A stretch of 64,000 nucleotides of DNA from Halpernia frigidisoli (GTDB taxonomy: Bacteria > Bacteroidota > Bacteroidia > Flavobacteriales > Weeksellaceae): NCBI RefSeq assembly GCF_900113805.1, contig NZ_FOQT01000004.1, forward strand, positions 124,001-188,000. The letters are read 5' to 3'. The notes beneath the pieces are model-generated. The model saw only the letters and a program-made list of their open reading frames with translations. It was not told where the DNA came from and did no database searches. Below, one piece after another: positions 54,810 to 57,499 of this stretch. The translations under genes were made by a program, and so were the position numbers. The first letter of the stretch is position 1, and every line of letters starts with the position of its first letter.

Positions 54810-56024
54810 ATGTATTCAATTATAGACATAGAGAGCAATGGCGCAGCTTTTCGGGAAGAACAGATTACCGAGATCGCCATTTATAAATTCGATGGACATC
54901 AGATTTTAGATCAGTTTATTTCGATGGTAAATCCTCTAAGTGAGATTACGCCTTTCGTTCAAAAACTCACAGGAATTACTCCCAACATGGTGCGAACGGC
55001 GCCGAAATTCTTTGAAATTGCAAAGAGAATTGTAGAAATCACTGAAAATACGACCGTTGTTGGTCATAATGTTGATTTTGATTACAGAATGTTGCGCCAG
55101 TCATTTGGAGCCTTAGGTTTTGAATTTGAGCGCGAAACAATCGATACAATTCCATTGGCACGTAAATTAATTCCTGACGAAAAAAGTTATTCTTTAAGCA
55201 AACTTTGCAAATCAATCGGCATTCCTTTAACGGAAAAACACCGCGCAGGCGGCGATGCGAGAGCCACTTTAGACTTGTTTAAATTATTAATGCTAAAAGA
55301 CCAATCCGCAGAAATTATCCAGAAACAACAGGAAGAAGCGCGATCAAAAACGTTTTTAAATAAGATAAGAAAATTGACGGAAAATCTGCCTTCAAAAAAA
55401 GGTTTGGTGTATTTTCAAGACGAAAATGGAAAATTGCTTTATCTGGATTTCGTTACAGACTTATACAGAATTTCTAAAAACGTTCTAAATTCCAAAGCCA
55501 AAAAATGGTATCATATTCAGCAATTAACAGAGCAAATAAATTACGAATTGGTTGGAAACGAAGTTCTTGCGAGAATTATGATGCTTAATAAAAAAATCAC
55601 GAAAGATGAACGTGCGCTTTTTGGTTTGTTTTTTATTAATGAAAAATTTAGCATAAAGAGGTTGACCTCCGTAAAAAAGATAAAACCTTTAGTAAAATTA
55701 AAAACATTTTCTCAGTCTTCAAAAGTGTTAAAATACGCGGAAGAATTTAGTGATTTTGAAACTTTTAATTCTATAATTAATTTAGAAGACAGAAATGAAC
55801 TTTGGATTTCTGAAGGCAGAACTTTAGGCGAAAAATCTTTTATCATAATTGAAAACGGAATTTTAAGCGGTTTTGGTTTTTACGAATTATACCATCAAAT
55901 AAAATCGTGGGAAATGATAAAGAAATTAAAAATTGATATTTCTTTTGAACCAAAATTGTTAGAGAATTATTTGAAATTAGCACTTCTAAAAAACTATTTT
56001 GAAATAATTTCAATTCCGAAATAA
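54810..56024 (+). CDS. DnaQ-like 3'-5' exonuclease with a decayed GIY-YIG-like C-terminal domain
   Basis: The 404 residues start with a DEDDh exonuclease: Asp6 and Glu8 in IIDIESNG, Asp89 in GHNVDFDY, His144 and Asp149 in HRAGGDARAT. After ~residue 190 comes SKKGLVYFQDENGKLLYLDFV with YELVGNEVLARIM further on. This aligns with the GIY-YIG fold of UvrC/Cho (PGVYYF...VIYIGKS), but GIY is GLV, YIG is YLD and the arginine context is lost, so nuclease activity of that domain is unlikely. Such DnaQ-UvrC-like fusions occur in Bacteroidota. It probably acts in repair. Confidence 0.85.
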   Translation: MYSIIDIESNGAAFREEQITEIAIYKFDGHQILDQFISMVNPLSEITPFVQKLTGITPNMVRTAPKFFEIAKRIVEITENTTVVGHNVDFDYRMLRQSFGALGFEFERETIDTIPLARKLIPDEKSYSLSKLCKSIGIPLTEKHRAGGDARATLDLFKLLMLKDQSAEIIQKQQEEARSKTFLNKIRKLTENLPSKKGLVYFQDENGKLLYLDFVTDLYRISKNVLNSKAKKWYHIQQLTEQINYELVGNEVLARIMMLNKKITKDERALFGLFFINEKFSIKRLTSVKKIKPLVKLKTFSQSSKVLKYAEEFSDFETFNSIINLEDRNELWISEGRTLGEKSFIIIENGILSGFGFYELYHQIKSWEMIKKLKIDISFEPKLLENYLKLALLKNYFEIISIPK

Positions 56025-56098
56025 CCGAAAATCTTTAAAGATTTACAAAATCCTTTAACAAAAAAGAAACAATTCAGCAATTAAATTCAATACAAAAA

Positions 56099-56129
56099 TT
56101 GCGAGATTTACAGATAAATTCTAATTTTG
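56099..56129 (+). promoter_or_regulatory. Promoter of the lysA leader transcript (TTG-N20-TAATTTTG)
   Basis: TTG at 56099-56101, 20 bases, then TAATTTTG at 56122-56129 and GC. Both elements and the spacing fit the Bacteroidota consensus. Transcription would start near 56135, 15 bases before the leader ORF. Confidence 0.6.
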
Positions 56130-56149
56130 CCGAAAATTTAAAACAAGCA

Positions 56150-56221
56150 ATGCAAATTATTAAACAAAATAAAATCGGTAAAAAGGGAGCTGTAAAGTTC
56201 TCTAAGGTTTGGAATGTCTAA
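56150..56221 (+). CDS. Putative Lys-rich leader peptide upstream of lysA
   Basis: The 23-codon ORF reads MQIIKQNKIGKKGAVK and ends FSKVWNV. Six of its 23 residues are Lys (positions 5, 8, 11, 12, 16, 19). It lies between a consensus promoter and a strong intrinsic terminator, and the diaminopimelate decarboxylase gene follows. The plan is that of an amino acid attenuator in which ribosome stalling at Lys codons would prevent terminator formation. Translation has not been shown; the Lys codons are dispersed, not in one run, so this is a proposal. Confidence 0.55.
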   Translation: MQIIKQNKIGKKGAVKFSKVWNV

Positions 56222-56250
56222 TGAGTTGTATGCATAAAATATTAATCCGC

Positions 56251-56285
56251 GGCAGACTCTTTTCGAAGAATCTGCCTTTTTATTT
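56251..56285 (+). terminator. Attenuator-type terminator before lysA (UUCG tetraloop)
   Basis: GGCAGA and TCTGCC form the outer stem, and CTT-TTCG-AAG gives the inner stem with a stable UUCG loop, followed by TTTTTATTT. It lies after the promoter and leader ORF and 15 bases before lysA, with no other gene between, so it would end the lysA transcript prematurely unless disrupted. A competing pairing GAGTTG (56222-56227) with CAGACTC (56253-56259, one bulge) is possible but weak. Confidence 0.8.
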
Positions 56286-56299
56286 AAAAAAATATAAAA

Positions 56300-57499
56300 A
56301 TGACCGATAAAAATTTACTAAAAATCGCACAGGAATTTGGAACGCCAACCTACGTTTACGAAGCAGAATCCATCAAAACTCAGTATCAAAAACTGACGGA
56401 TTCTTTTACGAAAAACACCCGTTTTTTCTATGCTGCAAAGTCTTTAACGAACATTAATATTTTAAAATATATAAAAAGTTTAGGCGCGTCCTTAGATTGC
56501 GTTTCTATAAATGAAGTGAAATTAGGTTTGAGAGCCGGTTTTACTGTAGATCGTATTTTATTCACTCCAAACTGCGTAGATTTTTCTGAAATTGAAGAAG
56601 CTGTCGCGCTAAAAGTTCATGTGAATATTGATAATATTTCCATTTTGGAGCAATTTGGGACAAAATATGGCAATTCTTATCCAATTTTTGTTCGTATTAA
56701 TCCGCACATTTTTGCGGGTGGAAATTATAAAATCTCAACCGGACATATTGATTCTAAATTTGGGATTTCCATTCATCAACTTCGTCATATCGAACGTGTA
56801 ATGAAATCTACAAACCTTTGCGTGAACGGCCTTCATATGCACACGGGAAGTGAAATAAAAGATGTTGATGTTTTCGTGCAGGGTTTAGAAATTTTATTTG
56901 AAATATCAGAACATTTTCCATATTTAAAATATTTAGACATGGGAAGTGGTTTTAAAGTGCCTTATCAAGACGGCGATCTGGAAACGGACGTGAAATCTTT
57001 AGGTAAAAAAGTAGAAAAAGTATTGTCTGATTTCGAAAAAGAATCTGGCAGAAATCTCGAACTTTGGTTTGAACCGGGTAAGTTTTTGGTAAGTGAAAGT
57101 GGTCATTTTATTGTGAATTCAAATGTCATTAAACCAACAACTGCAACAACATTTGTCGGAATAAATTCTGGTTTCAATCATTTAATTCGTCCCATGTTTT
57201 ACGATTCTTACCATAAAATCGAAAACTTATCAAATCCAAAAGGTGCGGAAAGAATTTATACTGTCGTAGGAAATATCTGTGAAACCGATACTTTTGCCTG
57301 GGACAGAAAATTAAATGAAGTACGCGAAGGTGATGTTTTGGTTTTTCGAAATGCAGGCGCTTATGGATTTGAAATGAGTTCAAATTTTAATTCACGCCTA
57401 AAACCGGCGGAAGTTCTTTGGCTAGACGGAAAAGCGCATTTAATTAGAAGAAGAGATGAGTTTGAGGATTTGCTGAGAAATCAGATAGAGGTTTTATAG
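56300..57499 (+). CDS. lysA: Diaminopimelate decarboxylase
   Basis: The enzyme forms L-lysine from meso-diaminopimelate with PLP. The 399 residues show the PLP-binding Lys47 in FFYAAKSLTN, LHMHTGSEI, the glycine-rich MGSGFKVPY, EPGKFLVSESG and the NICETDTFAWDRK segment with the substrate-binding Cys-Glu from the partner subunit. The order is that of the fold-type III family and the length fits Bacteroidota LysA. It follows an apparent leader/terminator. Other Lys pathway genes are not nearby. Confidence 0.96.
   Translation: MTDKNLLKIAQEFGTPTYVYEAESIKTQYQKLTDSFTKNTRFFYAAKSLTNINILKYIKSLGASLDCVSINEVKLGLRAGFTVDRILFTPNCVDFSEIEEAVALKVHVNIDNISILEQFGTKYGNSYPIFVRINPHIFAGGNYKISTGHIDSKFGISIHQLRHIERVMKSTNLCVNGLHMHTGSEIKDVDVFVQGLEILFEISEHFPYLKYLDMGSGFKVPYQDGDLETDVKSLGKKVEKVLSDFEKESGRNLELWFEPGKFLVSESGHFIVNSNVIKPTTATTFVGINSGFNHLIRPMFYDSYHKIENLSNPKGAERIYTVVGNICETDTFAWDRKLNEVREGDVLVFRNAGAYGFEMSSNFNSRLKPAEVLWLDGKAHLIRRRDEFEDLLRNQIEVL

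Follow-up and report, generated by a model that had tools for sequence, protein, structure and literature searches.

A putative leader-peptide attenuator sensing lysine supply upstream of lysA in one family of flavobacteria

What lies upstream of lysA in a flavobacterium that could adjust its expression to the supply of lysine? Lysine genes are known to be controlled by riboswitches and T-boxes, and leader-peptide attenuators serve other amino acids; to our knowledge, amino acid regulation has been little studied in flavobacteria. The question is raised by a 64,000-nucleotide stretch of Halpernia frigidisoli DNA (contig NZ_FOQT01000004.1, positions 124,001 to 188,000; contig 2 of genome G000 in the set analyzed), called the window below. 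It contains a gene for diaminopimelate decarboxylase, lysA (56300-57499, forward strand, as are all parts of the leader; TIGR01048, E = 2.2e-110, 369 bits against a cut-off of 297.9), whose product is 91% identical to the LysA of Halpernia humi. Control at this gene would be sensible: the cell wall requires meso-diaminopimelate, the substrate of LysA, and throttling would thus be confined to the last step to lysine. Here, we describe a leader that, judged from comparative genomics and folding models, is very probably a ribosome-mediated transcription attenuator of lysA, of the trp/his type and sensing the supply of Lys-tRNA.

Between an exonuclease-type gene on the same strand, which ends at 56024, and lysA lie, in this order, a promoter-like pair of elements, a small Lys-rich ORF and a stem-loop with a T-run, all placed correctly by the first-pass annotation of this DNA. 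The putative promoter (56099-56129) consists of a TTG in the -33 region (56099-56101), a 20 nt spacer and TAATTTTG (56122-56129), which fits TAnnTTTG, presumably the flavobacterial -7 box consensus. The leader ORF (56150-56221) encodes the peptide MQIIKQNKIGKKGAVKFSKVWNV in 23 codons, six of them Lys (positions 5, 8, 11, 12, 16 and 19), and contains a predicted structure (56172-56210) in which an outer stem (56172-56176/56206-56210) surrounds a core hairpin (56184-56191/56196-56203). The predicted intrinsic terminator (56251-56285) comprises a stem-loop of 10 pairs with one C/A mismatch and a UUCG loop (56251-56276), followed by the T-run TTTTTATTT (56277-56285), and its stem is separated from the lysA ATG by 23 nt, T-run included. 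The predicted folding energy of this stem-loop is -12.6 kcal/mol, compared to -3.9 +/- 1.9 in shuffled sequences; that of the leader as a whole (56137-56299) is -35.1 kcal/mol (shuffles, -23.0 +/- 3.4), a value reached by none of 200 shuffles. A plain pattern scan of the DNA reported no terminators and missed the promoter; its promoter rule is for sigma-70, not for flavobacteria, and it missed the terminator presumably because its stem rule cannot bridge the mismatch.

In the 40 window ORFs that encode 150 aa or more, 8.3% of residues are Lys, which gives p = 0.0076 for six or more Lys among 22 residues. Lys-rich small ORFs nevertheless lie upstream of 4 of 40 gene starts in the window, lysA included, and the presence of such an ORF alone was therefore rejected as evidence; since these ORFs are not unusual here, conservation carries the case.

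Conservation was assessed in the best 80 of 547 loci with LysA relatives, in titled records from isolates and MAGs. A matching leader ORF precedes lysA in 57 of these 80 closest records, and all 57 have a terminator, defined as a hairpin of -7 kcal/mol or lower with a T-run, at most 75 nt from lysA. Among the remaining 23 loci, L021 is on a contig that ends inside the leader and retains the terminator; the other 22 have neither the ORF nor a terminator that good (best hairpin, -4.5 kcal/mol in L029). With both parts in 57 of 57 loci and neither in 22 of 22, the cut contig aside, the ORF and the terminator come and go together; the check for conservation of ORF and hairpin in relatives, proposed in the first-pass annotation, was passed. 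Two chance ORFs that had slipped past a loose first filter (L034, L070) were dropped, lowering the tally from 61 to 59 of 82 loci, and because an enlarged set of 85 loci includes some genomes recorded under two names, subsequent tallies are of distinct sequences (69, then 82).

The TAnnTTTG box is found within 60 nt upstream of the leader ATG, at 24-37 nt, in 81 of the 82 distinct leaders, and a TTG 15-26 nt further upstream in only 28 of 81; the promoter proposed in the first-pass annotation is thus present in the window, but its TTG is far less conserved than its -7 box. The position of this box matters for the possibility that the stem-loop merely terminates transcription of the exonuclease-type gene, with lysA served by a promoter of its own. 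That gene does end upstream on the same strand, and intergenic terminators are common; among 20 lysA regions sampled outside the family, two (L149, L151) have a strong terminator without a comparable Lys ORF. Against such a role, the box intervenes between gene and stem-loop, the stem-loop lies only those 23 nt from the ATG, and the ORF-less relatives, save the cut contig, lack a qualifying hairpin with T-run, so that we consider this explanation extremely improbable.

The 82 distinct leaders comprise 62 of type C (peptide MQNFKQIKTGKKGAVKFSKVWNI and variants), 15 of type K (MNVLNSIKKVAAKGKKFFSKANSVD and variants) and five divergent ones. The ORF, which starts with ATG throughout, is 72 nt long in 62/62 type C and 78 nt in 15/15 type K leaders, with no indels within either type, and the stop is likewise kept in every type C leader. 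An eight-codon core, K-G-x-x-x-x-x-K, is shared by all 82, except that its first K is A in L184. Lys makes up 26-27% of leader residues in frame, compared to 10-19% in the two other frames. The six dispersed Lys codons reported earlier are confirmed in the window, where they form no run, but they are not all fixed among relatives: 22 of the 62 type C leaders have Arg at codon 16, and the divergent leader L184 has only 4 Lys among 25 residues. In seven type C leaders, Lys 8 is replaced by Gln, together with a change of codon 7 to Lys. In another divergent leader, L194 (G273), the ORF runs on and an antiterminator-like strand, AAGAGCTGC, lies inside its end.

These data also bear on whether the leader is a lysine-binding riboswitch, or another aptamer RNA, in which the ORF is accidental. 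Such an RNA would account for a stable structure and for the conservation of type C even at synonymous sites (GTT in 62/62; AAG at codons 12 and 19, both in 62/62). It is harder to reconcile with the retention of the ATG and of ORF length within each type, and with the finding that the frame, the Lys codons and the position of the hairpin are common to types C and K, which share little other sequence. Furthermore, no Rfam family matches the leader at its gathering score, and relaxing the search of 55950-56400 to E 10 yielded only eight weak, unrelated matches, none of them a lysine riboswitch. An aptamer is, accordingly, very unlikely in our judgment. Elsewhere in the window lie two Flavo-1 RNAs (RF01705; 23601-23705 and 35524-35627), members of a family for which we know of no function.

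Covariance models of the type C leader (R1, built from 34 leaders) and the type K leader (R2, from 13) were searched against 246 genomes of the family. R1 matched 103 genomes, 100 of them strongly, the other three being two divergent leaders (G304, G314) and one noise match (G340); R2 matched 66, 25 of them strongly. Strong matches occur once per genome for both models (100/246 and 25/246). Wherever the place of lysA was listed for a genome with a strong match, inspection by eye put the match directly upstream of it (27/27; 24 type C, 3 type K). No second leader upstream of another gene was seen among the R1 matches in 103 genomes, in a search with strict filters and 13 candidates scored per genome that returned one match in each and could lose weak copies. 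Twenty places of weak or divergent matches, 19 from R2 or both models plus the weak R1 match in G340, were inspected individually: five adjoin lysA and are the divergent leaders L176, L177, L184, L194 and L195 (L195 being a strong R2 match), and the other 15, gene ends with terminators or ambiguous places, were treated as noise.

By title, the leader was seen in records of Chryseobacterium, Epilithonimonas, Kaistella and Halpernia; it is missing from some sampled Kaistella and Chryseobacterium and from the sampled Cloacibacterium, Riemerella and Soonwooa loci. In 20 regions upstream of lysA, sampled from three further families in the order, a script search found no core ORF; one region (L148) has a different Lys-rich ORF. 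From its presence in genomes of the family and its absence from these 20 regions, the leader is, on sequence comparison, a lysA element of one family. In leaderless Chryseobacterium loci (L025, L047, L055, L056, L074 and similar), the 5' region of lysA is short and carries, in place of the leader, a TTTTAAATTATAAACAATTTC..TACCTTTG-like promoter block common to these loci.

The core hairpin inside the ORF (56184-56203) folds at -9.7 kcal/mol versus -4.3 +/- 1.8. In a gapless alignment of 35 distinct cores, 92.9% of 280 cells are paired compared to 83.6 +/- 1.4% in shuffles, sliding the pairing by one to three columns leaves at most 68.2% of cells paired, and cells changed on both sides number 22 against 8.2 in shuffles, by statistics that, like all those on hairpin and antiterminator pairing and covariation given here, ignore relatedness. 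The number of pairs with double-sided changes (3 vs 2.7) and that of further pair types (12 vs 10.8) show no excess over shuffles. Judged from this alignment, the eight-codon core encodes a covarying hairpin. The outer stem is 100% paired in 34/34 type C leaders, with one-sided changes only, such that shuffles cannot tell its pairing from chance. In the terminator, all aligned cells are paired; of the UUCG-capped terminator with T-run described in the first-pass annotation, the stem and T-run recur among relatives and the UUCG loop is not conserved.

The same alignments speak to a third possibility, namely, that the conserved peptide itself acts, as an arrest-inducing nascent chain or as a small basic protein made from an RNA of about 150 nt, in response to a signal other than Lys-tRNA. 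In its favor, residues V20, W21 and N22, none of them Lys, are kept in 62/62 type C leaders, and G and, in many cases, F-S recur in the core. Conservation is, however, found largely where the RNA pairs, the C-terminal part of the peptide differs between the types, and the strong matches adjoin lysA in all the genomes in which this was checked. Neither leader peptide matched an NCBIfam family, as peptides this short rarely can. Taken together, we assign an acting peptide only a slight probability.

A further element of such an attenuator, absent from the first-pass description, is a strand immediately downstream of the ORF. Four RNA segments would compete: segment 1 at the ORF start (56152-56160), segment 2 at and after the stop codon (56220-56235), and segments 3 (56251-56261) and 4, the two arms of the terminator. 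In duplex and folding computations, segment 2 can pair either with segment 1, forming a protector, or with segment 3, forming an antiterminator, so that the 1:2, 2:3 and 3:4 pairings can form in the layout of the trp attenuator. Helix 1, between the ORF start and the post-stop strand (columns 3-11/74-81 of alignment A1), has 95.8% of cells paired across 34 leaders. Over 56 type C leaders, the antiterminator duplex has a mean z of -2.48 (-2.47 in a repeat with 1000 shuffles), and over 13 of type K one of -1.58 (-1.64 in the repeat); it reaches p <= 0.05 individually in 45/56 type C but only 3/13 type K leaders. Over 41 distinct combinations, a leader's own arms pair at -10.3 kcal/mol compared to -9.3 +/- 0.2 for permuted arms (0/5000 permutations), and within type C own arms barely surpass those of other type C leaders (-11.25 vs -10.94). 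The type C antiterminator columns hardly vary (91.5% paired vs 90.8% in shuffles, 16/500), and a register slid by -3 has the higher covariation score (0.156 vs 0.091). Individual substitutions include a two-sided change in L032 and a variable post-stop position at which C is faced by G in the opposite arm in 10/10 type C leaders, compared to 12/50 where the post-stop base is G. The window's own antiterminator is weak (-7.8 kcal/mol). The weak points are thus thin covariation for the antiterminator and its pairing in type K, which is weak leader by leader.

The choice between these pairings was modeled by folding each of the 82 leaders with 30 nt masked as the ribosome footprint, at a first stage with the 5' arm and loop of the terminator made and at a second with the leader complete. 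The core position of the ribosome was taken as the first match to the core, which is Ala in L184 and, in L177, a Lys earlier than the aligned one. At the first stage, the mean antiterminator probability for type C was 0.99 for a ribosome with its A site at the first core codon, 0.97 at the last Lys, 0.92 with no ribosome and 0.26 at the stop, with 10.7 expected antiterminator pairs for a ribosome at the core start versus 0.7 at the stop. In the same order, the values were 0.84, 0.49, 0.71 and 0.27 for type K, and 0.43, 0.40, 0.27 and 0.01 for the divergent leaders. For the window, they were 0.98, 0.34, 0.02 and 0.02, the predicted textbook behavior: off when untranslated, off with the ribosome at the stop, on with a stall at the core and partially on at the last Lys. 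In these folding models, antiterminator and terminator are mutually exclusive, and a ribosome on the stop codon blocks the former. At equilibrium, the complete leader is predominantly in the terminator fold whatever the ribosome state tested (lowest mean, 0.75); the choice must, in this model, be kinetic and made during RNA synthesis, as in classical attenuation. With no-ribosome values of 0.92 and 0.71 for types C and K, the average relative would have no firm off state by default; a clear one is predicted only for a subset of leaders, that of the window included.

We propose that, when Lys-tRNA is plentiful, the leading ribosome would reach the stop codon and cover segment 2, so that 3:4 would form and transcription would terminate ahead of lysA. 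With charged Lys-tRNA in short supply, the ribosome would wait at the Lys codons and open the hairpin inside the ORF, leaving segment 2 free to pair with segment 3, and polymerase would read into lysA. If the leader is not translated, 1:2 would form in the window's leader and leave segment 3 to segment 4, making termination the default. Under this scheme, the leader would be transcribed and translated, ribosomes would stall at its Lys codons and lysA expression would follow lysine; the parts, their conservation and the pairings possible at each ribosome position come directly from the computations. Leader-peptide attenuation, as the first-pass annotation had already read this locus, gains support from the conserved frame, the putative covarying hairpin and the predicted post-stop antiterminator strand. 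An in-frame conserved ORF rich in codons for the end product was found, with an intrinsic terminator between it and the gene, both hallmarks of an attenuator. The dispersion of the Lys codons, the frequent Arg at codon 16 and the many relatives without the leader count against it.

Codon usage also speaks for the attenuator. AAG accounts for 236 of 481 Lys codons in the leaders, compared to 131 of 1384 in the window genes, an enrichment that is partly forced by pairing in the hairpin, although in type K codon 16, in the hairpin loop, is AAG in 14/15. Two genes for tRNA-Lys(UUU) provide the sole tRNA-Lys among the 35 tRNA matches listed, all of them identified, in a survey that scored 150 of 286 first-look candidates in a genome 99.5% complete.

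Promoter, leader and lysA identities were also compared in 17 chosen loci. The window promoter is 0.80-0.88 identical to those of the Epilithonimonas type, versus 0.58-0.72 for other Chryseobacterium and 0.60 for H. humi, and the window leader is 0.83-0.86 identical to both type C groups versus 0.59 to H. humi, which has a type K leader; lysA of the window, in contrast, is nearest to that of H. humi (0.83 vs 0.75-0.78 for the Epilithonimonas type). This combination of an Epilithonimonas-like promoter, a Halpernia-like lysA and the other leader type in H. humi suggests that the control region (56090-56285; compared with L001 and L024/L031) may have been exchanged as a module. A compound proposal, which we advance tentatively and consider rather less than probable, is that lysine would be sensed without a run of its codons. 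The sensor would be formed jointly by a conserved hairpin in the ORF, which would slow the ribosome or pause polymerase, and by a small number of spaced AAG codons, locally rare, decoded solely by tRNA-Lys(UUU) and placed at its foot, on its loop side and at its exit; the Halpernia promoter and leader would have been exchanged as one module independently of lysA.

The host genome itself appears, from sequence, to use leader-peptide attenuation for other amino acids. On contig 7 of G000, by eye, a leader peptide with four consecutive His residues (MKVTTVLNHHHHLTKKAS; L228) and a stem-loop with T-run precede a HisG-family gene, and a leader peptide with three consecutive Trp residues (MKNLNKNWWWHFNSSRV; L229) and a stem-loop with T-run precede a TrpE-family gene; neither leader has an Rfam match at gathering. 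An HMGL-type gene of the same genome (L230), perhaps not leuA, has no leader. The his and trp leaders raise the prior for a lysine leader. They also weaken the alternative, left open in the first-pass annotation, of an RNA- or protein-based mechanism acting on the same terminator, as does the comparison of types C and K, in which the Lys ORF, the core hairpin and the terminator layout recur with little other sequence in common.

No lysine leader peptide was found in the literature searched; an earlier prediction is possible in a comparative study of bacterial attenuation from 2010 (PubMed 20198868), which is cited in PMC4833913. We consider it highly probable that the lysA leader adds lysine, as a new amino acid, to a known kind of leader-peptide attenuator. 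If true, a flavobacterial lysine attenuator would fill a gap among leader-peptide attenuators; its presence or absence among close relatives provides a clean all-or-none evolutionary series, and the leader offers a testable switch in flavobacteria.

Among known systems, the L-box lysine riboswitch, whose features are given here from general knowledge, likewise controls lysine genes and may use a terminator, but the lysA leader has a conserved Lys ORF in place of an aptamer that Rfam would match. The his and trp leaders of the same genome have, by eye, the same order of leader ORF, stem-loop with T-run and biosynthetic gene, and differ in having codon runs, of four His in one and three Trp in the other. 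Known trp and his attenuators include the E. coli type and, in Bacteroidetes, the Bacteroid-trp motif. The lysA leader would share with them a short ORF rich in the amino acid of the pathway, competing protector, antiterminator and terminator pairings, and a stop codon close enough to the antiterminator strand for a ribosome on it to mask that strand. It would differ from them in that its effector is lysine and its gene lysA, and in that its control codons are dispersed, in part locally rare AAG, and accompanied by a conserved hairpin inside the ORF.
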